Source: a virus. Taken from it: DNA of 64,000 nt. Each line of letters begins with the position of its first letter. Position 1 is the stretch's first letter. Position numbers and translations under genes: made by a program. The stretch spans positions 112,946-176,945 of the IMG/VR virus record IMGVR_UViG_3300044959_000131; one strand, written 5' to 3'. Below are positions 2 through 52,871 of this stretch, in pieces. The notes beneath the pieces were generated by a model. That model did no database searches and was not told where the DNA came from. It saw only the letters and a program-made list of their open reading frames with translations.

Positions 2-304
2 GAAGTAGATAAGAAAACCCTCTTAATGGCATATGACACGCTTCATAGGTATGCTCCAGAATTTACTGCAGATCCGCTTCTCGGTGGAGCTCTCCTAAAG
101 AACATCTCAGAGCTTCCAAACATGAGTCACAAGACCATTGTCGAACTAATTGGTGCGCAGAAGAATATAGCTGATGCCAAGAGCCGATACTTCTCTGAAA
201 TGTCAAAGCTTTCTCCACTTCTCGTCCCAGACAGCGGTCATACAGAAGTAAGATATGAGGGCGGGGTTGAAAAGTCGAGAACGGTTAGACGTCCAGGTGT
301 CTGA
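2..304 (+). CDS. C-terminal part of a virion/head protein (cut by window start)
   Basis: The frame is open from the first bases of the window and ends at a TGA that shares bases with the ATG of the next gene (TGATG). An internal ATG at 26 could start a 92-residue product, but no ribosome binding site precedes it and the frame stays open upstream, so I read this as the tail of a longer gene. The visible piece is helical and polar with a basic end (EKSRTVRRPGV). Its place directly before the head protease-like gene suggests a portal or another head-assembly protein, but no domain can be recognised. Confidence 0.6.
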   Translation, partial: EVDKKTLLMAYDTLHRYAPEFTADPLLGGALLKNISELPNMSHKTIVELIGAQKNIADAKSRYFSEMSKLSPLLVPDSGHTEVRYEGGVEKSRTVRRPGV

Positions 305-3300
305 TGAAGAAACAAGTTCAATTCAGAGGACATACAGAGTTTGGTGTCTTCTGTCGGTCGCTATTTGGAAGTTCAGGAGCGTTTGAGAAGATTGCTGGAG
401 CTCCTCCTTTTGCTGATTGGCCAACAGGAGAAGAGCTTAGAAAGTACATCTCAAAGATTACCAAAGAGGACCGTAAAAAGTACGTATACGTTCTCGTAAA
501 CGCTCTCGGAGCTGGTGAGTACTTCGGTTGCTTCCCAGCAGGCTCCATTGTTCGTTCTAAGCGAGGAGATATCCCTATTGAGCATGTCGTAGTTGGTGAC
601 GAGGTTCTCACTCACAGAAATAGATGGAGAAGGGTCATTGCAACCAACCGCAAGTTTCATGATCTCGGGTTGGTTCATTTGGATGTCACCGGGGTTCCGC
701 ACTTGGCTCCGGCTATCTCAGCGACCCCGAATCATGAGGTTTTTGTCGTTCCTCGTGACGACTTGTTTCGAGCTCGTAGAGATATTCTCTACAAGCGTGG
801 AGAGATGGATTGGAAATCCTCCTACAATGAATTTGTTTCATCTCTGAATCCAGACTGGATGCCGATTGAGTTCATCCGCCCAGGTGACTTTCTGTTTCAG
901 CCATTTCCGATTGAAACTCGGAATTCAGACTTTGCTCAGAAGTGGGGAGATCATGACTTTGCGTACTTGATGGGACTCTTCGCGGCTGAGGGGTGTCTAG
1001 CAGAGAGGTACGGTCGGGATAGGAACAAGGAACGATCGGAGCTGGTTGAGAGGATTGTTTTCGTCATAGGGGATCATGAAGATCACATCGTCAGGAATGT
1101 ACAGCGCATTGTAGAGAAGCATGGGAGATCTGTGACCGTAAAAAGGACCCCAGAGACCAAATCTATTCGCCTTGAACTTTGTTGGAAGGAGTTGGCTCAA
1201 GCTTGTTTGGAGCACATCGGCTGCCATTCAACCGAGAAGAGCTTGTCTTGGGACATTCTCACAATGCCACATGGGTGGCAGGAGGCTTTTCTAGCTCCAT
1301 ATGTTGAGGGTGATGGACACTTTGTAGAGAACTCAAAGTTTGAGCGGTACAACGGCTCAGTGGTTATATCCACCGCATCTAAGAATCTGGCCTTGGACCT
1401 ACGACTTCTCTACGCTCGTCTCGGGATCGTGGTATCTGTTAACGGACGGCATAATACCAAGGCCACTTGGTACAACGGCAACCCAATTTACACCATTCAC
1501 ATAGGAAAAACGTGGGCCAAAGACTGGAATGGCTCGACTAGGGCGTCAAGCTACATCGATAAGGAACGTGGGTTCATCATTTCACCAGTGAGGAGTGTTT
1601 CGCATGAGAAGTGGTCCGGTGAGGTATTTGACCTGACAGTCGAGGAGGACAGTTCCTATGTTGTGAATGGGATTGTCGTCCACAATTCGAATATCAACGC
1701 GGACTACTTTCCTTGGAATGCTCTTGCGCATGAAGGCGACGACTACGGCTACAAAACGTTCCTGAACGCCCATGCATTTCAGCATCACAAGAACAAGGAC
1801 CCGACTAGGGCTTTCGGAGTCCCAGTTCTCTCGGTGCTGAACCACCCGATGAAGCGTGTCGAGCTCATCGTCAGACTCGACAGAGCAAAGGCAAAGGAAG
1901 AGCAGGCTGACGGCATCATCACTCGTATCGAAGCCGGAGAGTTTCCAGATGTCAGCATGGGCTGCGTCCCCAAGTACGCAAAGATATTGAGGAAGGATGG
2001 ACGTATCGTTCACATCGAGGAGATCCGAGAGGGAGACGAGGTCATATCACATCGAGGACGCGCTCAGAGAGTCGTCAGCACGATGGTCCGCCGTCACAAG
2101 GGAACCATCTTTCACATCAAGCCTTATGGTCACAGAGACGCTCTGATTCTGACCGAGGAGCACCCTCTCTGGATCGTTCGTGCTGAGCAGATGGAGTGCC
2201 GTCCATCTTCGAAATCCATAAATCAGGGTCGGAGACAGCATGTATGCACCCCAGACAGCCATCTCACGAAGAAGGGCTGTTCTGGCTGTTTAACGAGGCC
2301 CTCTTTCAAGTTTGAGTGGGTCCGAGCAGATGAGGTTTCCGAGGGAGACTATCTTGCGATGCCTATTCCGACCTTTGAGGCTGAACGAAAGTTCACAGCC
2401 GTCGAGGCAAGGCTTCTCGGATACTATTTGGCAGAGGGCTACGTCCTAAAGAACAACTCTGGCGAGGCAATCGGGGTCGAGTTCTGCACCGGGCTGAATG
2501 AGATCGAAACCCATGACGAACTTCGTAAGCTCGCCACTCTATCTGGCCTCGCAGATAAAGTCGTCGAGCGAGACATCCCTGAGCGCAATGGAAAATACAT
2601 CGCCATCTGGGATCGGAATCTGGCTGATCTTTGCTCCACTCATTGTGGGAGTGGAGCAAAGACGAAGTTTCTGTCCGCCTCATTGATGGGGGCTGACGAA
2701 GAGACTCTACAGCTCTTCATCGGTGCCTACGCGAACGGAGACGGTGGGTGTTACGAGGGTTCCATCTACTTCTCCACTGCATCGGAGCAACTTGCTGACC
2801 AACTTCGAATCTTATTGGCCCGTCTGCGCTGCATCGCAAGCGTAAACGAGATTGTCCACAAGCCGTCGAAGTTGGTTAATACAGAGACCGTAGAGTTTCA
2901 GGTCCGTGTTGGGAAAGACTCGGCTTGGAGACTTACCGGTTCGAGGTTTTCACCCGGTCGGTCAGAGAAGATCTGTAACAAAAGGTTCTTCTACGATTTC
3001 GAGGGAACGACGTATTTGATGACTCCCATCGAGCGTATCGATGAGGTCGAATACGACGACGATGTCTACAACTTTGGAGTCGAGAACGACGACAGTTATC
3101 TGATCGATGGTTTGGCTGTTCACAACTGTAAAGTTCCTTTTGACATTTGTTCGATATGTGGACAGAAATCCAAGACTAGGCTGGATTACTGCTTCCCACC
3201 TGGGACGCCAATTCTGATGGCCGATGGACAGTTCAAGGCCATCGAGGAAGTTCGAGTTGGTGACGAAGTTATCACCCACACTGGATCTACAAAAAGGGTC

Positions 3301-5328
3301 GTTCGTCTACTACCTAGCACGGCTCACGACGGGCTGATCAAGATTACGGCTTATGGATTTGGAGACATATTAGCTACTCCAAATCACCCATTCATGATTG
3401 GAAGGACAAAGACCGGTGTGAAAGGAGGTCGTAAGGCACAGCTCGACGAGTCGCCGCCAGATTGGGTCGCCGCAGAAGACGTTCAGCAATTCGACACTGT
3501 CTTTCTGCCAATTCCAAAAATTGAGCTCTCCAAGGATTCAAAATACAGCAATGCACGCGTCGGGTGGTTACTCGGGCTCTACCTAGCAGAAGGGTCCCCA
3601 AGCTTCTCTCCTGGTGTCGCGCATCCGAAATCAGTCACGTTGTCAGTCAACGTAAGCGAATCCTTTGAGGACCGCGTCAAGGAAGCCGTAACTTTGATGG
3701 GAGGCGACGCCGCAGACGTTAGCGTCTGCGTATCAGAGGAGCGACACAGCAAGAGTATTCGAATCAACAATAGAGAGATTGCTGAGTGGCTTCTACTGAT
3801 GGGTGGGCGTGGTAGTCACACTAAGACGCTCAATCCTGCAGTTTGGCATCTGGGAGAAGAATTTGCTAGGGGTGTTCTTCTCGGTTGGTGTGATGGAGAT
3901 GGTAGCACTGGTGATAACGTAACAAGGATCGCAACTTCGTCTGAATCCCTTGCGAGGCAGATGCAACTTCTTGCTGCATCTTGTGGGATTCTATCAGGTC
4001 TTAAGCTATACTCTCGTGATACCAATTTCTGCCACCAGGATATTTGGTATCTCACGTTCTCGGGAGATGCCTCGGCGGCTCTTCGTGAGCAACGTCCCCA
4101 GGAAGTTTTTGAGAATCAGTCCAAGCTCTTCTTCTGGAAGAATTACCTCTGCTCTACTGTCAGAAGAGTTGAAGAAGTTCCATACCATGGAGACGTCTTC
4201 AACTTTGAAGTCGAGGATGACCACTCATACGTAGCCGGATGCTTTGCGGTTCATAATTGCCATCACATGATGCCTCCTCCAGAGCTGAGGAGTGTATACG
4301 GACCGAACAAGATTCTCCCCGATGGCCGTCGCATCTACGTCATCAACACGATGCCGAAGTTCTTCGACATCAGTTTTGTATTCATTGGTGCAGACAAGAC
4401 GGCGAAGGTGATGGCCAAGGTGGCATCCGTTGGAAACTCGGTTTGCCTTGGAGAAGTGTGCGCAATACCGAGACCGTCAGCCGTTGTTCACGAGCTCACT
4501 TCATCACCACCTTCTGAAGATGGATTCCGGAAGGTCGCTTCTGCAGATTGTTCTTGCGGATGTGGTGGGCCGTGTGATCCAATGTCAAAGCTTGCCGATG
4601 CGTTTGGTGCCACAAAGGTCGGGGAGATCATCAAGACCGTACCAGCTGGAAACTTTGCCAAGAACATCCTTCCAGCAATTGAGGCTTCAGAACCAGACCT
4701 ACCAAAATCTCTTCTCAATGACCTGGCATCTAGGCACACAATTGGGGAGATTACGGGTCGCGCCGCCTCCCTTGGCATTGTGTTGAAGCCTGTTGAGTTC
4801 CAAAGGATTGTACTTGTAAGGATGGGAAATGGAGAACTGGCAGACGAGCTCGACGACGAGTGCAACGTATTCAGACACGTCCAAGCTGTGGACGACTCAG
4901 TCCAACCAGACCCCCTACTTCCTGAAACTGGTCTCCTTCACCTGCTCCGTCGATTTATCTCAACTCGTTCGGGACTGGGGGAGCCACTCCGGATCCGGTC
5001 TGTTAAAGTTATGCTGGGCGTGAAAAAGCCTCTTCCCACCCGGACGCCGATCGAACATCCTCTACTCGACAAAATCAGTGCCGCCTATAATGGGTATAGG
5101 CGGAACCTTCTGAAGAAACTTTCACAGGTCGAAAACGTGATCTACAACGACCCATCGCTAAGAAAAGAGATCTTGGGGAATCGGTTGTCTAGCTTGTTCA
5201 CAAAGACGGCCAACTCCCAAATCTTGTCTCACGATTCGTTGTCGTACATGATGGGCGCGTACTTCACGGATAGAGGCCTGTTGCTCAATACTGGCATTAC
5301 TGATGTAGTGTCAGGTTTAATGGCCTAG
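304..5328 (+). CDS. Head maturation protease-like structural protein with three inteins
   Basis: The 1674-residue precursor carries three inteins (residues 76-461, 554-941, 963-1318); their removal leaves a host protein of about 544 residues. The joined host sequence reads ...GEYFG-SNINADYFPW...LNHPMKRVEL...DVSMG-CKVPFDICSICG...LDY-CHHMM, the pattern of conserved phage prohead-protease/head proteins with an N-x-N-x-D-x-F box and a four-Cys zinc knuckle. The second and third inteins insert exactly before the first and last Cys of that knuckle. An FEKIA peptide lies at residues 27-31, a motif shared with other virion proteins here. The C-terminal half is helical with a second Cys-rich patch (CSCGCGGPC). 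The start overlaps the previous stop. The inteins and overall frame are certain; the protease role is inferred from the family pattern and from the position before the capsid gene. Confidence 0.75.
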   Translation: MKKQVQFRGHTEFGVFCRSLFGSSGAFEKIAGAPPFADWPTGEELRKYISKITKEDRKKYVYVLVNALGAGEYFGCFPAGSIVRSKRGDIPIEHVVVGDEVLTHRNRWRRVIATNRKFHDLGLVHLDVTGVPHLAPAISATPNHEVFVVPRDDLFRARRDILYKRGEMDWKSSYNEFVSSLNPDWMPIEFIRPGDFLFQPFPIETRNSDFAQKWGDHDFAYLMGLFAAEGCLAERYGRDRNKERSELVERIVFVIGDHEDHIVRNVQRIVEKHGRSVTVKRTPETKSIRLELCWKELAQACLEHIGCHSTEKSLSWDILTMPHGWQEAFLAPYVEGDGHFVENSKFERYNGSVVISTASKNLALDLRLLYARLGIVVSVNGRHNTKATWYNGNPIYTIHIGKTWAKDWNGSTRASSYIDKERGFIISPVRSVSHEKWSGEVFDLTVEEDSSYVVNGIVVHNSNINADYFPWNALAHEGDDYGYKTFLNAHAFQHHKNKDPTRAFGVPVLSVLNHPMKRVELIVRLDRAKAKEEQADGIITRIEAGEFPDVSMGCVPKYAKILRKDGRIVHIEEIREGDEVISHRGRAQRVVSTMVRRHKGTIFHIKPYGHRDALILTEEHPLWIVRAEQMECRPSSKSINQGRRQHVCTPDSHLTKKGCSGCLTRPSFKFEWVRADEVSEGDYLAMPIPTFEAERKFTAVEARLLGYYLAEGYVLKNNSGEAIGVEFCTGLNEIETHDELRKLATLSGLADKVVERDIPERNGKYIAIWDRNLADLCSTHCGSGAKTKFLSASLMGADEETLQLFIGAYANGDGGCYEGSIYFSTASEQLADQLRILLARLRCIASVNEIVHKPSKLVNTETVEFQVRVGKDSAWRLTGSRFSPGRSEKICNKRFFYDFEGTTYLMTPIERIDEVEYDDDVYNFGVENDDSYLIDGLAVHNCKVPFDICSICGQKSKTRLDYCFPPGTPILMADGQFKAIEEVRVGDEVITHTGSTKRVVRLLPSTAHDGLIKITAYGFGDILATPNHPFMIGRTKTGVKGGRKAQLDESPPDWVAAEDVQQFDTVFLPIPKIELSKDSKYSNARVGWLLGLYLAEGSPSFSPGVAHPKSVTLSVNVSESFEDRVKEAVTLMGGDAADVSVCVSEERHSKSIRINNREIAEWLLLMGGRGSHTKTLNPAVWHLGEEFARGVLLGWCDGDGSTGDNVTRIATSSESLARQMQLLAASCGILSGLKLYSRDTNFCHQDIWYLTFSGDASAALREQRPQEVFENQSKLFFWKNYLCSTVRRVEEVPYHGDVFNFEVEDDHSYVAGCFAVHNCHHMMPPPELRSVYGPNKILPDGRRIYVINTMPKFFDISFVFIGADKTAKVMAKVASVGNSVCLGEVCAIPRPSAVVHELTSSPPSEDGFRKVASADCSCGCGGPCDPMSKLADAFGATKVGEIIKTVPAGNFAKNILPAIEASEPDLPKSLLNDLASRHTIGEITGRAASLGIVLKPVEFQRIVLVRMGNGELADELDDECNVFRHVQAVDDSVQPDPLLPETGLLHLLRRFISTRSGLGEPLRIRSVKVMLGVKKPLPTRTPIEHPLLDKISAAYNGYRRNLLKKLSQVENVIYNDPSLRKEILGNRLSSLFTKTANSQILSHDSLSYMMGAYFTDRGLLLNTGITDVVSGLMA
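529..1686 (+). mobile_element. Intein 1 with LAGLIDADG endonuclease domain
   Basis: This is a 386-residue in-frame intein. It begins with Cys (CFPAGSIVRSKRGD), has the block B signature ATPNHEVF, and ends in DSSYVVNGIVVHN followed by Ser as the +1 nucleophile. Two LAGLIDADG helices are visible, YLMGLFAAEG and APYVEGDGHF, so the homing endonuclease may be active. It sits immediately before the conserved SNINADYF box of the host protein, which fits the habit of inteins to occupy the most conserved sites. Confidence 0.95.
1963..3126 (+). mobile_element. Intein 2 with LAGLIDADG endonuclease domain
   Basis: This is a 388-residue intein starting CVPKYAKILRKDGR and ending DDSYLIDGLAVHN, with Cys as the +1 residue. 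Block B is LTEEHPLW. The endonuclease helices are LLGYYLAEGY and FIGAYANGDGG. An insertion between the splicing and endonuclease parts carries extra cysteines (CTPDSHLTKKGCSGC), possibly a small zinc-binding loop. It is inserted just before the first Cys of the host zinc knuckle. Confidence 0.95.
3190..4257 (+). mobile_element. Intein 3 with LAGLIDADG endonuclease domain
   Basis: This is a 356-residue intein starting CFPPGTPILMADGQ and ending DHSYVAGCFAVHN, with Cys as the +1 residue. Block B is ATPNHPFM and the endonuclease helices are LLGLYLAEGS and LLGWCDGDGS. Only 21 host residues separate it from intein 2. It is inserted just before the last Cys of the zinc knuckle, so that Cys serves both splicing and probable metal binding. 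Confidence 0.95.
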
Positions 5329-40028: not shown

Positions 40029-40573
40029 GCAACGTCGTCAGCATTGGGTTCAGCACACCGAAGAGCTTCAACCCTGTTTCGTGGATTATTCGGAAACTGA
40101 CGAAGTCCAGAGCCAGCCACACTTGGTTTTTGTACTACGACGCAGACTTCGAGATGTGGATGGTCATGGAAGCCCATGAACTCGGCTTCCGTCTCATTCC
40201 GTTCGAGAGGTTCCGCAATAGAAATGAAGTGGTCGCCATCTTTACGACCAAAACGTCGCTGTCGGACGGGTTAAAGTGGGCCGCCAAGTGGCTCGGAACT
40301 GCCTACGACTTCGGTGGATTGATTGGCATGGCGTGGGTCGTCCTCGGCCGCATTTTGAAGAGACGTTGGCGGAATCCGCTACAGAACTCTCACGCCATGT
40401 TCTGCTCAGAGATGGCTCTCACTGTTCTTCAACTCAGCGGAGTCGGGTGGTCAAAGCTAGCTGAGCCACACGAGACATCTCCTCAGGACCTGCTCGATAT
40501 GTTCGAGGATGCGGCAGAGTATGACGGAGATGCAATCATTGTAGACCCGCCTGGAAAGGACTCTGACAGCTAA
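40025..40573 (+). CDS. YiiX/NlpC-P60-like cysteine hydrolase
   Basis: The 182-residue product starts at ATG 40025 (ATGA overlap). It shows the motif order of YiiX/YebB-type permuted papain-fold hydrolases: SHTWFLYYD (conserved His, about residue 32), GTAYDFGGLIG (about 93-103) and NSHAMFCSEMALTVL (candidate catalytic Cys, about residue 128). These enzymes act on peptides, acyl bonds or cell wall. In a phage, next to a small membrane protein at the end of the fibre operon, a role in wall opening or lysis is plausible but unproven. There is no signal peptide. Confidence 0.7.
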   Translation: MSNVVSIGFSTPKSFNPVSWIIRKLTKSRASHTWFLYYDADFEMWMVMEAHELGFRLIPFERFRNRNEVVAIFTTKTSLSDGLKWAAKWLGTAYDFGGLIGMAWVVLGRILKRRWRNPLQNSHAMFCSEMALTVLQLSGVGWSKLAEPHETSPQDLLDMFEDAAEYDGDAIIVDPPGKDSDS

Positions 40574-40580
40574 GCGTAGT

Positions 40581-40601
40581 GCGACCCCCTACGGGGGTCG
40601 C
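40581..40601. terminator. Strong stem-loop between convergent genes
   Basis: GCGACCCCC (40581-40589) pairs with GGGGGTCGC (40593-40601) around a three-base loop. It lies between the plus-strand hydrolase gene and the minus-strand coiled-coil gene. No long T-run follows on either strand, so it may act as a bidirectional but leaky terminator. Confidence 0.6.
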
Positions 40602-40608
40602 TGGAACG

Positions 40609-41067
40609 CTAGGACTTGATAAGATTGTCACCAATCTTTTCGGAGAGCTTGTACGTCAATTTTACTTCCGAGCTCCCCCCTTCTTCCGATGATTCGTTCC
40701 TCCTTTCTTGTGATTGAGGCTGCTTGTTTGCTGGCAGCCTCGGTTTGTGAACCGTACGGCTCAGATTCGACTGTCGAATCTGAGCCGACCTGTACTTTAT
40801 TTGCGCCTCGATCTTCTCCGCTTGCGCTCTGAGCTCACGCGCCTCAAGCTCAAGCGCTTCTACCTTTACCCTCCTTTCTCTGTTTTCGAATTCCTGTTTC
40901 ATGAGGAGCCGTCCACGGTCCAGCTCCTCGTCTGACATGTCCGTCTGACGGTCGAGGATCTCCGCCTCAAGACCAGCTTTCTTGGCCTTGATGGACAACA
41001 ACCGGCTAACGTCCTTCATGATCTGGATAAAAACCTCGACCAACTCACCTGGAATAGCGATTTTCAC
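40609..41067 (-). CDS. Coiled-coil protein of unknown function
   Basis: The 152-residue product uses a GTG start with GGAGAGGGGAAG before it. Residues about 17-95 are one long charged coiled coil (MKDVSRLLSIKAKKAGLEAE, EELDRGRLLMKQEFENRERR, LELEARELRAQAEKIEAQIK) and the end is polar. Two perfect inverted repeats lie inside the coding region (40715-40740 and 40757-40787). The gene stands behind a promoter-like element and an immediate terminator hairpin, which suggests conditional expression. No function can be given. Confidence 0.65.
   Translation of the reverse strand: MKIAIPGELVEVFIQIMKDVSRLLSIKAKKAGLEAEILDRQTDMSDEELDRGRLLMKQEFENRERRVKVEALELEARELRAQAEKIEAQIKYRSAQIRQSNLSRTVHKPRLPANKQPQSQERRNESSEEGGSSEVKLTYKLSEKIGDNLIKS
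40757..40787. repeat. Perfect 14-bp inverted repeat inside a coding region
   Basis: CGGCTCAGATTCGA (40757-40770) and TCGAATCTGAGCCG (40774-40787) flank only three bases. A second 8-bp repeat (GAGGCTGC/GCAGCCTC, 40715-40740) lies nearby. In the minus-strand mRNA they would form two adjacent strong hairpins near the 3' end of the gene. Confidence 0.8.
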
Positions 41068-41102
41068 GTACTTCCCCTCTCCTTGAGAGCTAGCTAATAA
41101 GT

Positions 41103-41137
41103 AAAAAAATGAGGATGATCTGTGGGTATCATCCTCA
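41103..41137 (-). terminator. Minus-strand intrinsic terminator directly after a promoter element
   Basis: On the minus strand TGAGGATGAT and ATCATCCTCA form a 10-bp stem followed by seven T residues. The stem begins within about six bases of the GGCATAAG element at 41143-41150 and precedes the coiled-coil gene at 40609-41067, so it could act as an attenuator. Confidence 0.9.
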
Positions 41138-41142
41138 AACTA

Positions 41143-41150
41143 CTTATGCC
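41143..41150 (-). promoter_or_regulatory. GGCATAAG promoter element
   Basis: The minus-strand context GTTCGGCATAAGTAG matches the shared element. Downstream comes a terminator hairpin, then a ribosome site and the coiled-coil gene. Confidence 0.6.
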
Positions 41151-41186
41151 GAACCACCGGAATCTTTTTCTCAGCACTAAAGTGAC

Positions 41187-41215
41187 TTGCAATCTCCTCA
41201 ATCTGTCCGTATCAT
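41187..41215 (+). promoter_or_regulatory. Sigma70-like promoter of a small RNA
   Basis: TTGCAA (41187-41192) and TATCAT (41210-41215) are separated by exactly 17 bases, a good match to a bacterial housekeeping promoter. Transcription would start near 41222, at the edge of the structured RNA described next. No coding frame follows. Confidence 0.65.
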
Positions 41216-41221
41216 GTAGAC

Positions 41222-41292
41222 AGACCTCGATTGGAGTTTCCCCCTCCGCTCCGATTGAGGCAGGACCCCGGCTCTGGCCGGGGTCCTTTTTT
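41222..41292 (+). ncRNA. Candidate small RNA with C-rich loop and intrinsic terminator
   Basis: This is about 71 nt between a sigma70-like promoter and a T6 tract. The first hairpin pairs CCTCGATTGGAG (41225-41236) with CTCCGATTGAGG (41249-41260): 12 base pairs including two G-U, with a 12-base loop TTTCCCCCTCCG. The second is a terminator, AGGACCCCGGC, TCTG loop, GCCGGGGTCCT, then TTTTTT. The loop is complementary to purine-rich Shine-Dalgarno sequences; the ribosome site of the neighbouring gene at 41067 (GGAGAGGGGAAG, minus strand) could pair with it over ten bases with one bulge. Both strands are otherwise noncoding here. A trans-acting regulatory RNA is the simplest reading; expression is not proven. 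Confidence 0.6.
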
Positions 41293-41301
41293 ATTTCTCA
41301 G

Positions 41302-41541
41302 CTACGCCGTGCCAGGCGGCTGAGGGAACTGAGGAGGCGGTAGCTCCGCGCGCTTCCTACTGTCGCGGAGATATTTTAGGCGGAGTTGCCTGTTCTCTTC
41401 TTCCAACTCGTAAATCCGGTCCTCGTACTCTTGTTTGATTCTTTCACCGCGATCAGTCATCTTCTTCGCGATGAGGTAGATGCCCCAAGCGAAGAGAGCC
41501 ACCTTCAATCCACACAGCCCATATAGGAATAGAACGATCAT
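41302..41541 (-). CDS. Small membrane protein with coiled-coil tail
   Basis: The 79-residue product has one N-terminal membrane helix (MIVLFLYGLCGLKVALFAWGIYLIA, residues 1-25), then a charged coiled coil (MTDRGERIKQEYEDRIYELEEENRQLRLKYLRDS) and a Pro-rich end (PPPQFPQPPGTA). The plan resembles inner-membrane spanins or small septal-type proteins, but a paired outer spanin is not visible nearby. AAGGAGAG precedes the ATG and a GGCATAAG element lies 29 bases upstream of it. Confidence 0.65.
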   Translation of the reverse strand: MIVLFLYGLCGLKVALFAWGIYLIAKKMTDRGERIKQEYEDRIYELEEENRQLRLKYLRDSRKRAELPPPQFPQPPGTA

Positions 41542-41569: not shown

Positions 41570-41577
41570 CTTATGCC
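41570..41577 (-). promoter_or_regulatory. GGCATAAG promoter element
   Basis: The minus-strand context TTCTTCGGCATAAGCACATA lies 29 bases before the start codon of the 41302-41541 gene, after the terminator at 41636-41685. No good -35 hexamer is present at the usual distance. Confidence 0.65.
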
Positions 41578-41635
41578 GAAGAATGGAGAGATTTCCTGAA
41601 GAGGCTGCCGACCGATTCAACATCAGCTCTCTGAG

Positions 41636-44369: not shown

Positions 44370-44822
44370 CTATTTGTAAGAGAGGTTGATCCAGGCTTTT
44401 AAGGCCAGTGCCTCCCATGCACGTACAAGAGTCTGCTCCAGAGCGTTATAGTTCTCGAAGAAATCACTTGGGCTGAGGTTGTATATCTTCAGATTGGTCC
44501 AAGCTGAGACCACTTTTGCTGGGAACTCGGCAATGATGCTCATCTCAAGGTGGTAACGGTCAGACTCGGCCACTGAATGCCCGCCCGGAAGTCCTGCGCG
44601 GTCGAACAAATCTACGACGATCTGGTCTTTTTCATTCTGGTCTTTTTCTTTCTCAGTGATGGGCCGTTCCGTCTTGATCCTCTTGTAGAAGAGTCCGAGA
44701 TGGAAGTTGTCATCTATCCTCGGCTGCCACTTGAATCCGAGCTCCGTCATTCTCGATTTTATAGTGTCGAATTTCACTGTTTTCACTGTCCCCTCTCTTC
44801 GGCTGCCAATTTTCTTTTTCAT
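44370..44822 (-). CDS. Unknown protein, paralogue of upstream neighbour
   Basis: The 150-residue product starts in an ATGA overlap with the previous gene. It matches the neighbouring product along its length: VKFDTIKSRMTELGFKWQ, FHLGLFYKRIKTERPITE, SVAESDRYHLEMSI and SPSDFFENYNALEQTLVRAW correspond to equivalent segments there. The pair is a tandem duplication. Both contain a beta-rich core and a long C-terminal helix. Function unknown; it may be cotranscribed with the reverse transcriptase operon upstream because no terminator is seen between. Confidence 0.7.
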   Translation of the reverse strand: MKKKIGSRREGTVKTVKFDTIKSRMTELGFKWQPRIDDNFHLGLFYKRIKTERPITEKEKDQNEKDQIVVDLFDRAGLPGGHSVAESDRYHLEMSIIAEFPAKVVSAWTNLKIYNLSPSDFFENYNALEQTLVRAWEALALKAWINLSYK

Positions 44823-45202
44823 CAGGCCAGTGCCTCCCATGCACGTACAAGAGCTTGCTCTAGAATATCGTAGTTCTCGAAGAAGTCACTCGGGCTGAAG
44901 CTGTACGCTTTCAGCTTGGCCCAAGCTGAAATCGCTTTTGATGGGAAGGCGATGTCCACTGGAAACTCGCCAGTGATGTTCACCTCGAATTTGTAGCGGT
45001 CCTCCTCGGACACGGCATTCCCGCCCGGAATGCTTGCGTGGTCGAATACTTCCACGACGAGCTGAGCCTTCCCGTTGGCGGTGCATGGACGCTTCGTCTG
45101 GACACTCTTGTAGAAGAGTCCGACAAAGAAGGTCCCAGTTTTGTGTTCCTGCAACTTGAAACCAAGGTCCGTCATTCTCGACTTTATCTTGTCGAATTTC
45201 AT
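44822..45202 (-). CDS. Unknown protein, first of a tandem duplicated pair
   Basis: The 126-residue product has AGGAGGCA directly upstream. Sequence blocks MKFDKIKSRMTDLGFKLQE, FFVGLFYKSVQTKRPCTANG, VSEEDRYKFEVNITGEFP and SPSDFFENYDILEQALVRAW are shared with the next gene, with about half of the residues identical by eye. It starts 40 bases after the reverse transcriptase stop on the same strand. Its G+C content is that of the phage rather than of the G+C-rich operon, so association with that operon is uncertain. Confidence 0.7.
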   Translation of the reverse strand: MKFDKIKSRMTDLGFKLQEHKTGTFFVGLFYKSVQTKRPCTANGKAQLVVEVFDHASIPGGNAVSEEDRYKFEVNITGEFPVDIAFPSKAISAWAKLKAYSFSPSDFFENYDILEQALVRAWEALA

Positions 45203-45242: not shown

Positions 45243-46586
45243 CTACCACTCATCGAGAGCCGCCAATCTACCGATGGCTCCAGCCTGGCGCTCCATCTTC
45301 TCGAGTCGTCTTCTTGTCTTTTTGGCTGCGTACCTCCATACACCGGGCGATACTGCGAACCCACCGCGCTTGTTCTCGTCAAGCCACTTCCCGATCACGT
45401 CGCAAAGGAACAGGCCCAAACGGTATTCACCGAGAAGTTTGCGCTCGACGACGTTTGGTGCTGTTGCCCACACCGGAGATCCGGTACAGACGACCTGCCA
45501 CAGGCGGACGTACGGAATCGGGAAAGGACGCCGACTGAGCCTCATTGGCGCACGGGCCATTGCAAGCCAGAGCCACTCACCACGTGCATATCCAGGCTCC
45601 GCCGCTGGAGGAGCAGGTTGAAGCCAGTGGCGTTTTATTCGAGGTTGCCGAGTGGGAGGAGATTGTGGCGTCTCCACCAGTGTTTGACCAACAGCCGTCT
45701 CCTGTTCGGTCGTCGATTGATCGACATCAACTGGCTGTTGGGCTGACAGATTTGGATATACTCTCACAATAGATGATTGCCCCTTACCTGCCCTCCGTAT
45801 ATACGAAATCCATTCTTCGTGTCCGTCTGCCCTCCATTCTGCACGCCTGTGACGTCCCCTCACGTGGTTCGCTGCACGAGCGCGTCGCAGTGCATTACGT
45901 GTAGGGTGAATGCCGTTTTCGTCTACAGCGACTCCGCATATGATACGCCTTCCGGCCTTCGAGAGATAAACACGAGTCTTTGCAGTATGCAGAGACCAAC
46001 CGAAACGTCGACTCGCGACGTCTTCCAGTACCCGAACAACATCGGTCCACCGTCTTTCGTCACGCAGAGAAACAGCCAGATCGTCGGCGTAGCGCGTGTA
46101 AATGTATTCGAGGCCACGGGGACCAAGTAACGCATCGAGTTTTCGAACTACCTCCGCGTCATACCTCGCACCGACCAGATTGGCCGCGCTCGGAGATGTC
46201 GGAAGTCCCTGAGCCGTAACAGGCTGCTTGTGCCATGATGCTTGGTACGTGACAGCGTCTGCTATCTCCCGTGCATTGTCTGGTGTTTGACCAGAACGAA
46301 CCAACGCACGTAGCACCTGTTCTCTGGTGACGCTGTCAAACCAGGATTTCAGGTCGCACGTCACCGTAGCCGTCCATGGTCCGACATGTTGTAGAGCGGC
46401 GGTGACTGGAGAGCGGCTTTCTACGAATCCGTGGGATACATCAGCGACGCCAAGACGTTGTGCAAGGCGTCTCTCGGAATACATCAGAACCTTAAGAAAC
46501 AGAGATCGAAGATATTCGGCTTCATCTGGATCAGGTGCAACGACACGTCGCAGCTTGACGCCTTTCCTGATTTCTAATTCTTTCAT
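45243..46586 (-). CDS. Reverse transcriptase, retron-like, with long C-terminal extension
   Basis: The 447-residue product starts at ATG 46586 with GGAGGT six bases upstream; a longer reading from 46694 only translates a hairpin region. RT motifs in order: HGF (52-54), VTCDLKSWFDS (75-85, first catalytic Asp), QGLPTSPSAANL (126-137), YTRYADDL (163-170, catalytic YADD), TAKT (201-204) and RRIICGVAVDENG (213-225). The order and spacing resemble retron enzymes: SHGFVESRS matches, NAxxH is degenerate (AALQH, 63-67) and VTG is ICG. About 175 extra residues follow (AEWRADGHEEW...RLAALDEW), longer than typical retron RTs. It is last in a MoxR/vWA operon and directly follows a structured noncoding stretch. 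A UG-type or other RT class remains possible. Confidence 0.85.
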   Translation of the reverse strand: MKELEIRKGVKLRRVVAPDPDEAEYLRSLFLKVLMYSERRLAQRLGVADVSHGFVESRSPVTAALQHVGPWTATVTCDLKSWFDSVTREQVLRALVRSGQTPDNAREIADAVTYQASWHKQPVTAQGLPTSPSAANLVGARYDAEVVRKLDALLGPRGLEYIYTRYADDLAVSLRDERRWTDVVRVLEDVASRRFGWSLHTAKTRVYLSKAGRRIICGVAVDENGIHPTRNALRRARAANHVRGRHRRAEWRADGHEEWISYIRRAGKGQSSIVRVYPNLSAQQPVDVDQSTTEQETAVGQTLVETPQSPPTRQPRIKRHWLQPAPPAAEPGYARGEWLWLAMARAPMRLSRRPFPIPYVRLWQVVCTGSPVWATAPNVVERKLLGEYRLGLFLCDVIGKWLDENKRGGFAVSPGVWRYAAKKTRRRLEKMERQAGAIGRLAALDEW

Positions 46587-46597
46587 CCCAGACCTCC

Positions 46598-46786
46598 CTC
46601 CCCGGCCCGGGCCCGTAGCAGGCCCAGGCCGGGGAGTTTGAAACGCACCACGAAGCGGGGTTGCGCCGGAGTGAGAGACTTGTCCGAGAGTCATCTCTCT
46701 CTCACGTAGGCCTCAACCCCGCGCCTACCCGTCGTGGAGATCTTCAACGGGTGCCCCGACGTTCATCGCCGGGCCCTCCGATCTCC
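46598..46786 (-). ncRNA. Candidate structured RNA upstream of the reverse transcriptase (possible msr-msd)
   Basis: About 190 bases between the 166-residue gene and the RT are packed with inverted repeats: CTCCCCGGCC 46598-46607 with 46627-46636 (plus inner GGGCC/GGCCC); CCACGA/TCGTGG at 46648-46653/46732-46737; GCGGGGTTG/CAACCCCGC at 46655-46663/46714-46722; GTGAGAGA/TCTCTCAC at 46671-46678/46698-46705; and GGAGATC/GATCTCC at 46736-46742/46780-46786. The three middle pairs nest into one long hairpin of about 90 nt, as in an msd stem. Retron RNAs sit in this position, but no a1/a2 repeat or branching G can be assigned. The most proximal hairpin abuts the RT ribosome site and could control translation instead. 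Confidence 0.45.
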
Positions 46787-47317: not shown

Positions 47318-49114
47318 TCACCTCCTTTCTTCTCGATTCACCTCTACGATTCGCGCCCACGGTGGAACGTAGGACCTGTAGCGTCCACCGACGAGCGCGA
47401 CGATCACGGGGATGTGCGGTGGCTCTTCTGGCCATATACCATCGCCGTCAGTGACGACGACGATGACGTCCGCACGCCACCCACGCCGAGGCTCACAAGC
47501 GCGGGCGATTCCCCAGCGGAGGTCTGTGCCCCCGCCACCGCTGTAGAGACCGAGGCGGGACACGTCGCGCGCCGAAGTCACACGCGCATCACCATGGACG
47601 GTTGTATCCACGGAGATCACGCGCACGCCTTCGGATCCACCGCCCACAACGGAGCGGCAGATGGCTGCGACGACGCTCGCCACCTCGCGGCCCGTGTTGC
47701 TCATCGAGCCAGATGTGTCCAGCACGATGGAGACACGAGCCGATGTACGGACACCGCCCGGCACGAGACGGCCAGAGGCGATGGACGGTGCCCATCGTGG
47801 TCTGGAGTAGCTCGGGGATTCTTCGCCCCGGCGGTTCGTCAGCTCGACGCCGAGGTAGGCTCTCAATCGGCGCTCCCACCGATTTGCCTCGGCCGAGCTC
47901 GCCCGCTGACCTTCCTCCCACTGGTCGACCCAAACGAGCCAACCGCCAGGCAGATGACCCCGGCCTTTGGACCCTTTTGGGCCTTTCCCCTTCTCGGCCT
48001 CGCGCACCGCTTTGGCGACCTCCTTGCGGATCTGCTCGGCCTCCGCCTCGGTTCGGCCTTTCTCGGCGTCTTCCGGGCGTTCCCACGGGGCGGGTTTCCC
48101 CGTACAAGCGGACCCCCCCGCGCAGCACCGCTCGCGGGGGGAAGAGGAGACAGGACTACCGGGACCCGAGTGCTGCTCAGACGCAGAGTCACCGTGGTCA
48201 TGCGGGGATCCATTCGATGAGTCTGCGCTGGCCCCAGACGAGGCAGGGTACGAAGACCCCACGCCGCCATGGGATTCGTCCCCGGCGGAGCCGGTCGACC
48301 CATGGCCATCGAGTGTCGTGGCTGGGGTAGCTCCGGAGGGGGCGGTGGGGTCCCCACCCGTAGGACCCTCCGATCTTCCTCCGGTGCCCGGTGTCAACTG
48401 CCCACCGGCGCCTGGTGACTGCCCACCAGACGAACCTTCGCCACCAGGCTCAGGAGACGCGCCTCCTGACCCTGAACCAGCCCCATTCCCACTGGATGGC
48501 GTGGCCACACCGTCCAGTGAGGAGTCCTGTCCCCTCCTCCCGCCGTGAGAGAGAGGACGCTGCAACTGCAGGGCCTTGTAGTACTTCTCGGCCAACAGGC
48601 CGTTTGGGGCCCCGCAGTCGCGTGGGAGAATCGAGCGCACGCACTTGCACTCCGCTGGCCCAGGGCAATTGAGCGGCCATGGGCCGAGTGCAATCTGGCG
48701 CTCGATCGGGACGAGTGCAGCGATTGCCCTGGAGAGGTAGGGCCACCGCTGCACTGCCGCAGCGCGGGCAAGAGACAACGGGGACATACCGAGTCGCTTC
48801 GCCTCTTCCACGACCGATGGTCCCCGCCTCCAACAACCATCTGGTAACAGCTGCGCCAGCTGGTCGTCGTCGTTGATCTCGGCGTCCGCTGCGAGATTCC
48901 ACATTGTCGGAATCGCGCTCAGACGCCGACAACGCGCCGCATGGGCACGAACGACGTGCCCGACTTCATGAGCAAGGACGGCGGCGGCCTCTTCCACCGT
49001 CCATTGCGAGAGCGCCTCGAGCGACCAGTAGAGGCACCAGGCCTCACTGGTCGCAAGTGTCCATGATGTTCCCCCTTCGGGTCCGCGACGAACGGGGATC
49101 GACGACGCGCTCAC
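47318..49114 (-). CDS. DUF2201-type metallopeptidase-like plus vWA domain protein
   Basis: The 598-residue product uses a GTG start overlapping the ATPase stop. The N-terminal domain has HExxH (HEVGH, residues 49-53) and MWNLAADAEINDD, the two signatures of the DUF2201 metallopeptidase-like domain. Residues about 195-345 form a Gly/Ser/Pro-rich disordered linker, then a charged helix. The C-terminal vWA domain has a complete MIDAS: DTSGSMS at 466-472, GGGGTDL near 526-532 and VVVTDGDG at 553-560. MoxR ATPases typically act on vWA partners; this pair probably forms an ATP-driven remodelling complex. DNA is markedly G+C-rich. Confidence 0.85.
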   Translation of the reverse strand: MSASSIPVRRGPEGGTSWTLATSEAWCLYWSLEALSQWTVEEAAAVLAHEVGHVVRAHAARCRRLSAIPTMWNLAADAEINDDDQLAQLLPDGCWRRGPSVVEEAKRLGMSPLSLARAAAVQRWPYLSRAIAALVPIERQIALGPWPLNCPGPAECKCVRSILPRDCGAPNGLLAEKYYKALQLQRPLSHGGRRGQDSSLDGVATPSSGNGAGSGSGGASPEPGGEGSSGGQSPGAGGQLTPGTGGRSEGPTGGDPTAPSGATPATTLDGHGSTGSAGDESHGGVGSSYPASSGASADSSNGSPHDHGDSASEQHSGPGSPVSSSPRERCCAGGSACTGKPAPWERPEDAEKGRTEAEAEQIRKEVAKAVREAEKGKGPKGSKGRGHLPGGWLVWVDQWEEGQRASSAEANRWERRLRAYLGVELTNRRGEESPSYSRPRWAPSIASGRLVPGGVRTSARVSIVLDTSGSMSNTGREVASVVAAICRSVVGGGSEGVRVISVDTTVHGDARVTSARDVSRLGLYSGGGGTDLRWGIARACEPRRGWRADVIVVVTDGDGIWPEEPPHIPVIVALVGGRYRSYVPPWARIVEVNREERR

Positions 49115-50253
49115 CGCTTGTCACCTCCAGTCGCGACTTCTAGGAGGTCGGCGTAGCGGGCCGCCGCCGTCTCAACTTCGGCTGGCATGGGCTTATTACG
49201 CCAGACGGGGTCGGCGGACCTCGCCCTCGCCAGTGTTCTTGCCGCGCCGAGCGAGAGGTCCGCATCGACGCGGGCGATGTACTGCCAGGCGGCAGCCCAT
49301 CTCGATTCTCGCTGTGGGTGATCGGCGCACGCCGCAGCGGCGACGGCCTCACACGCAGCCTGAGCCGCGTCGAGGCGCGTCGGCACAGGCGCGTTGAGAG
49401 GATCGAGAAGGACCCGCTCTGGATCTGGCAGGTCCGAGGCCTGGACCCACGCCAGAAACTCTTCGGCTGCGCCCTCTCCGACGCAGCCCGCAATGGCGGT
49501 GCACGCCGCCATCACGTTCCCACCCGCCGCGGCAAGGAGGCGGGAGGCGTTATCCCACGACCTCGGTGAGGGCCAGGCCTGGCCCTGCTTCGTGGGATCC
49601 TTCGGAAGGACGAGAAGGGGTGGCTTCGAGCCCGGAGCGCCCCCATCCTTCCGGTGGCTGTCCGTGGCGGTCTGCGCCGCCAGGACATATCCCGCGACCA
49701 GCGCCCGCGCTGCGGCGAGCGCAGGCGTCTGCGGTCGGCCCCAACCGCTCTTGGCCCCCTCGGCCCACGCCATGGGGTCCACTTTCCACTGAAAGTGGGC
49801 CCAGCGGTTGGCCGATGAGGGCCCCAGCTCGCCGCAATCCTCGCCCCAATCGGGGGGATTGGCGGCCGCCAAGACGCGGAGACCCTTGAGGTTCAGTCCG
49901 GCAAACCGCTTGGACTGAACCAGGCAGAGAATCTCCGCTCTGGCACCGGAAGGCCAGGCGGTTAGTTCATCCAGGAACAGCCATGCCGGCAGCCCCTGGG
50001 AAAGCGCCTGGTGGAGTTCGAGTGCCCACTCAGGCGCCAGCTTCTTTGCCCGTCCGGCCGACAGGTCCGGGATAATGATCCCGGCCCAGTCCGCCCTCCG
50101 GGCGTCCTCGGCGGAAAGCGTTACGAGCGTTGCTCCCGCCTCTTCGGCAGCCGCCTCCACACAGGCGGTCTTGCCGACCCCCGGTGGTCCCCAGAGGAGC
50201 ACCGGGACATCCGCCTCTACAGCGAGGCGGACGGTCAGTGGTAATGAGTTCAT
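49111..50253 (-). CDS. MoxR-like AAA+ ATPase
   Basis: The 380-residue product starts at ATG 50253 behind GGGAGGAT; a longer frame to 50337 would include the promoter. Walker A is GPPGVGKT (22-29), Walker B is LFLDEL (92-97), sensor 1 lies in AAANPPDWG (129-137) and an arginine follows in SSANRW (about 150). A helical C-terminal part completes the MoxR-type layout. It is translationally coupled to the vWA protein. A GGCATAAG element at 50288-50295 starts the operon, so the phage promoter class controls it. Confidence 0.9.
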   Translation of the reverse strand: MNSLPLTVRLAVEADVPVLLWGPPGVGKTACVEAAAEEAGATLVTLSAEDARRADWAGIIIPDLSAGRAKKLAPEWALELHQALSQGLPAWLFLDELTAWPSGARAEILCLVQSKRFAGLNLKGLRVLAAANPPDWGEDCGELGPSSANRWAHFQWKVDPMAWAEGAKSGWGRPQTPALAAARALVAGYVLAAQTATDSHRKDGGAPGSKPPLLVLPKDPTKQGQAWPSPRSWDNASRLLAAAGGNVMAACTAIAGCVGEGAAEEFLAWVQASDLPDPERVLLDPLNAPVPTRLDAAQAACEAVAAAACADHPQRESRWAAAWQYIARVDADLSLGAARTLARARSADPVWRNKPMPAEVETAAARYADLLEVATGGDKR

Positions 50254-50287
50254 ATCCTCCCTTCTAAGTGGATGTCCGACCAATATT

Positions 50288-50295
50288 CTTATGCC
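50288..50295 (-). promoter_or_regulatory. GGCATAAG promoter element of the MoxR-vWA-RT operon
   Basis: The minus-strand context ATTCATCGGCATAAGAATAT lies 34 bases before the ATPase start codon. It is nearly identical to the elements of small phage cassettes, showing that the operon shares their control. Confidence 0.65.
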
Positions 50296-50337
50296 GATGA
50301 ATGCCCCGTTTTCTGTGGATGGCGCTGCGTTGAACAT

Positions 50338-52689: not shown

Positions 52690-52707
52690 AAAGCCCCCGT
52701 GGGGGCT
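52690..52707 (-). terminator. Minus-strand terminator after the 48-residue gene
   Basis: On the minus strand AAGCCCC and GGGGCTT form the stem with a short CACG loop, followed by TTCTTAC. It is preceded by a perfect 13-bp inverted repeat (52711-52723 with 52739-52751) that spans the stop codon. Confidence 0.65.
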
Positions 52708-52724
52708 TGGCGGATCGAGGACCC

Positions 52725-52871
52725 TCACTTCGCGAGCAGGTCCTCGATCCGACGGCCGATCTCGTAGCCGACCCGGTAGCCGATCTTCCTCCCAGCCTTG
52801 TAGCTGGCGAGGCAGATCTTCTTCAGGGTACGGATATACAGACCGACCGCGTCCCTGATGATCTCCTTCAT
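52725..52871 (-). CDS. 48-residue basic helical microprotein
   Basis: The product MKEIIRDAVGLYIRTLKKIC... continues as LASYKAGRKIGYRVGYEIGR, an amphipathic helix with a repeating G-Y-x-x-G pattern, ending RIEDLLAK. GGAGGTG precedes the ATG, GGGATAAG lies at 52900-52907 and a terminator follows, so it is a complete single-gene cassette. Net positive charge suggests membrane or nucleic acid contact. Confidence 0.65.
   Translation of the reverse strand: MKEIIRDAVGLYIRTLKKICLASYKAGRKIGYRVGYEIGRRIEDLLAK

Follow-up and report, generated by a model that had tools for sequence, protein, structure and literature searches.

The window analysed here, a 64-kb stretch of DNA, is the final part of a 177-kb virus record. 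Structural genes occupy its plus strand and end at position 40573, beyond which the genes lie mostly on the minus strand. Salmonella phage Arash and Vibrio phages encode distant relatives of the sheath and capsid proteins. For the capsid protein, IMG/VR also holds many closer ones, up to 85% identical; a search for a host name through the capsid relatives in genome_contigs returned just three metagenome bins of mixed identity. The record also encodes its own RNA polymerase, a 2109-aa single-chain beta-beta' protein in which Rpb2 domains precede the Rpb1 domains (plus strand, 91246-97575 of the record, equivalent to L006:11246-17575). At about 41 kb of the window, a short plus-strand element with the features of a small RNA gene lies between two minus-strand genes, one divergent from it and one convergent on it (Table 1).

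Table 1. Features of the 41-kb element and its surroundings (positions in the window).
Feature	Position	Strand	Remarks
Gene for a 152-aa coiled-coil-like protein	40609-41067	-	Divergent neighbour, candidate target; relative in L094 (35% over 75 aa), positional counterpart in L092
Ribosome site GGAGAGGGGAA of the 152-aa gene	41072-41082	-	11 pairs with the loop
Hairpin beside the TTCGGCATAAG motif	41110-41137	-	T7 follows on the minus strand
Phage promoter-like motif TTCGGCATAAG, for the 152-aa gene	41143-41153	-	GGNATAAG family
Sigma70-like promoter TTGCAA-17-TATCAT	41187-41215	+	9/12 consensus; rare in the record; correctly spaced before the hairpin
Predicted small RNA, 69-71 nt	about 41222 to 41290-41292	+	Start placed 7 nt past the -10 hexamer; fold z -6.7
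Hairpin 1	41225-41260	+	13 pairs with the closing U-G (12 without it), 3 of them G-U
C-rich loop UUCCCCCUCC, with anti-Shine-Dalgarno core CCUCC	41238-41247	+	
Intrinsic terminator	stem 41262-41287, element to 41292	+	11 pairs (9 G-C), then TTTTTT
Gene for a 79-aa protein	41302-41541	-	Convergent on the small RNA; hydrophobic N-terminal stretch, then charged coiled coil
Phage promoter-like motif TTCGGCATAAG, upstream of the 79-aa gene	41570-41580	-	GGNATAAG family

The first-pass annotation had described a sigma70-like promoter with 17-bp spacing, a 12-bp hairpin, a terminator with T6 and about 71 noncoding bases at this locus, and all of these were recovered at the positions given in Table 1. 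The loop of hairpin 1 has 10 nt (UUCCCCCUCC) if the closing U-G pair forms and 12 nt otherwise, and the loop of the terminator hairpin is UCUG. The plus-strand RNA of 41218-41294 is predicted to fold at -43.8 kcal/mol, compared with -24.8 +/- 2.8 kcal/mol for shuffled sequences (z -6.7); the minus-strand RNA of the same interval folds less well (z -3.1). The G-U pairs in the plus-strand stem would become A-C mismatches in an RNA from the opposite strand, which lends mild support to plus as the working strand. The predicted RNA has no plausible coding frame, since the ATG at its start is followed directly by a stop codon. A frame opening with GTG (41122-41343) runs open across the element and was judged unlikely to be coding since it crosses both hairpins, and a role at the DNA level (for example, as an origin) was set aside because there is no skew switch at 41 kb. 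An inverted repeat, CTGTC-N11-GACAG (41203-41223, plus strand), spans the -10 hexamer of the promoter and is a possible operator.

Could such an arrangement arise by chance? Sigma70-like sites of this quality number 69 in 354 kb of strand (0.19 per kb and strand), and the chance that one of them would have its start site no more than a few bases from this hairpin is about 0.002, a post hoc figure. Two-hairpin modules (a stem with 9 or more pairs, then a terminator with its T tract within a few bases) occur twice in the real record and 0.4 times per shuffled record. The element at 41 kb has the stronger terminator of the two modules; the other (52691-52751, minus strand) forms the 3′ end of the mRNA of a 48-aa gene and overlaps its stop codon. 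Among the strong U-tract hairpins of the 177-kb record, the terminator of the element is the only one on the plus strand that lies outside genes. Because of this terminator, the fold z of -6.7 and the placement of the promoter, this site is likely to harbour a small RNA gene about 70 nt long. As features of sequence, the element has its own promoter, structure, an intrinsic terminator and a non-coding character, as expected of a bacterial-type trans-acting small RNA.

In the main rival explanation the element simply stops read-through: the two hairpins would halt stray plus-strand transcription from the structural operon before it enters the minus-strand genes, with no RNA acting in trans. The operon ends 690 nt upstream, its last gene is followed by just a U-less hairpin (40581-40601), and a terminator that is the only strong one on its strand outside genes would suit this role; that the other two-hairpin module is an mRNA 3′ end counts on the same side. 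However, a 459-bp minus-strand gene intervenes between the operon and the element, and no strong U-tract terminator was found near the end of the plus-strand operon in three relatives (G001, G003 and G006), so the terminator is not simply the conserved end of the structural operon. A read-through stop also leaves unexplained the first hairpin and the promoter positioned exactly before it. On balance this alternative is rather unlikely.

The 79-aa protein matches phrog_26573 (E 6e-6), a family of unknown function, and family searches with the 152-aa and 79-aa proteins found a known function for neither, the 152-aa protein matching no family. No close relatives of the proteins of these adjoining genes were found in IMG/VR or phage records. 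Both genes have a copy of TTCGGCATAAG upstream, a member of the GGNATAAG family of motifs, which lies mainly on the minus strand, frequently upstream of genes, and is presumably the phage's own promoter; the two copies would then drive the 152-aa gene and the 79-aa gene, respectively. The hairpin beside the first copy could as readily form the 5′ leader of the mRNA of the divergent gene as act as a terminator, because it begins right after the motif, a position in which hairpins are also seen at several other members of the family. Strong hairpins of up to 20 pairs directly follow GGNATAAG motifs at 41151 and 60784 in the window and at L002 16798, L005 19451 and L007 10378 (all on the minus strand), and they would form the 5′ ends of transcripts.

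The convergent layout raises a second alternative, that the RNA acts in cis as an antisense RNA on the 79-aa gene, to whose 3′ UTR it would be a perfect complement if the mRNA passes 41300. TxpA/RatA-type arrangements are type I toxin-antitoxin systems of this kind, with an antisense RNA that overlaps the mRNA of a small membrane toxin. About 12 nt separate the 3′ end of the predicted RNA from the stop codon of the 79-aa gene, and the terminator hairpin has no T tract on the minus strand, so the 79-aa mRNA could continue through it; the protein is also small, with a hydrophobic N terminus. Its 79 residues and long charged coiled coil are, however, unlike typical type I toxins, and it matches no toxin family. 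A cis-antisense role is improbable.

It had been proposed that the C-rich loop could pair with the ribosome site of the adjacent gene or with many other sites in host and phage. The loop is complementary to GGAGAGGGGAAG (41071-41082, minus strand), where it would form 11 pairs with a bulge at -18.5 kcal/mol, and by the raw pairing energy of the 12-nt loop the 152-aa neighbour ranks first of 113 trusted starts, in a gene set taken from a crude open-frame call, with the next start 1 kcal/mol behind. When the letters of the loop are shuffled, 4.7% of the shuffles pair equally well with the neighbour's site, 11% still rank the neighbour first and 4.3% match its lead. Opening the neighbour's ribosome site costs 9-10 kcal/mol, and once the opening of targets is charged the neighbour falls to 7th of 111 (-8.2 compared with -13.4 kcal/mol for the best). 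The complementarity to the adjacent site is real, and its advantage is one that 4-5% of shuffled loops equal and that accessibility erodes. The loop shows no general preference for phage ribosome sites, as 45 of 60 shuffled loops had an equal or better mean over the starts. CCTCC is present in 1.1% of the 12-mers of the record. A CTCCG CTCCG tandem sits at the 3′ arm of hairpin 1, and the CUCC of the loop may be owed partly to it. Blocking of a Shine-Dalgarno sequence by the loop is possible on this complementarity, and the 152-aa neighbour is a fair candidate for its target, one of several possible ones.

A third alternative is a titrating RNA, whose loop would mimic the tail of 16S rRNA, or sponge up RNAs or a protein, in place of acting on chosen mRNAs. 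The CCUCC in the loop speaks for it, and the layout weakly resembles RF02278 (22.5 bits, cut-off 50), although that alignment relies on letters upstream of the predicted start. The loop also pairs with phage starts overall no better than its shuffles do, and titration seems very improbable.

No Rfam 15 family reaches its gathering score within the window. The best near-match is RF02353, BjrC68 (31.4 bits, cut-off 39), which like the element has a hairpin with a GC-rich terminator directly after it. The same model also matches 9 of 14 unrelated control genomes and ordinary terminators in relatives; membership was rejected, the score being below the cut-off and the likeness, by the control genomes, a generic one of hairpin plus terminator. 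The RNAs alpha-r14 / NfeR1 and the 'cuckoo' RNA family are characterized by an unpaired C-rich anti-Shine-Dalgarno motif and variable stems, and alpha-r14 has three hairpins with the exact CCUCCUCCC in each (PMC10746234). The element shares the unpaired C-rich anti-Shine-Dalgarno motif, whereas it has two hairpins, of which one has a C-rich loop (CCCCCUCC) and the other the loop UCUG. Because the exact CCUCCUCCC is not in the loop (UUCCCCCUCC) and three motif-bearing hairpins are lacking, it was not assigned to this family; by analogy, it could nonetheless work in the manner of alpha-r14. In Helicobacter pylori, RepG uses a C/U-rich terminator loop that pairs with a G-repeat in a leader and controls expression (PMC8295292). 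Here, too, a C-rich loop faces a G-rich leader sequence in the candidate pairing, but RepG combines its terminator loop with a long G-repeat, whereas the element would use the loop of its first hairpin, with GGGG within a ribosome site as the candidate target. Phage-borne small RNAs that have been reviewed include PreS, VpdS, OOP and PAK_P4as15; PAK_P4as15 is missing from a related phage, and some phage small RNAs are limited to one of two phages (PMC12197685). The element resembles these four in size or in lineage-restricted distribution, though they are backed by transcripts and it is known from sequence alone.

That distribution is narrow. When the element was turned into a covariance model, its own sequence scored 107.8 bits and the best match across 35 related phage records 15.8 bits. 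No counterpart was found in these records, so that the conservation of loop and stem looked for in relatives was not seen, even in two records that keep the neighbouring genes. One of these (G001) has recognisable relatives of the 152-aa neighbour and of three genes beyond it, and the other (G003) has the same order with a positional counterpart; the corresponding gap contains no plus-strand hairpin-terminator in either. A nucleotide search for the element and searches of IMG/VR for loop patterns gave unrelated or chance matches only. By these comparisons the element appears to be confined to this one phage, unless close kin absent from the collections share it. Without a counterpart in the 35 records, conservation of the loop cannot be demonstrated, and the existence of the RNA is not thereby disproved.

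The explanation that best fits these observations is a non-coding RNA of about 70 nt, whose transcription would begin at the sigma70-like promoter and stop at an intrinsic terminator of its own. Its stable first hairpin would present the C-rich CCUCC loop, which probably pairs with purine-rich ribosome sites on phage or host mRNAs and so blocks translation; the divergent 152-aa gene would be the nearest of several candidate targets. Counted in favour are the fold z, the distance of the promoter, the unique terminator, the lack of a similar terminator near the operon end in three relatives, the lack of a coding frame, the top raw match and the phage's own RNA polymerase. Counted against are the lack of a counterpart in any relative, the 4-5% of shuffles that do as well, the accessibility rank of 7 of 111, a promoter with only 9 of 12 consensus positions and the possible origin of part of the loop in the CTCCG tandem. 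The gene and the loop mechanism together are a tentative reading, somewhat short of an even chance.

Since the phage has an RNA polymerase and a promoter motif of its own, transcription of the small RNA may fall to the host enzyme. The first-pass annotation had taken the different promoter class as a sign of host control before the phage programme. To speak of a different promoter class is reasonable given the beta-beta' polymerase and the distinct GGNATAAG motif, and early, host-driven expression would fit both. A broader scenario, in which a phage with its own polymerase keeps a small RNA under a host-type promoter, makes it before its own programme begins and uses an anti-Shine-Dalgarno loop to dampen host or phage translation, has little probability. 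Large phages that encode an RNA polymerase have, to our knowledge, yielded few small RNAs so far. If the host polymerase does make the RNA, a phage of this sort would have an RNA tool at work early on, and loop-based control of translation could readily be tested with it; at present the element is a candidate from one genome.

Other parts of the window have features of their own. A 1674-aa frame at 304-5328 (plus strand) contains three intein splicing domains and LAGLIDADG domains. On the minus strand, a tandem pair of paralogous genes (44370-45202) includes DNA stretches that are 70-86% alike, and a GC-rich stretch encodes a retron-like reverse transcriptase (45243-46694; PADLOC RT_outgroup, E 2.9e-26; Pfam RVT_1). 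Further along the same strand (47318-50337), an AAA ATPase lies beside a metallopeptidase/VWA (DUF2201) protein in DNA with a GC fraction of 0.62-0.68, a region that is possibly an acquired island.
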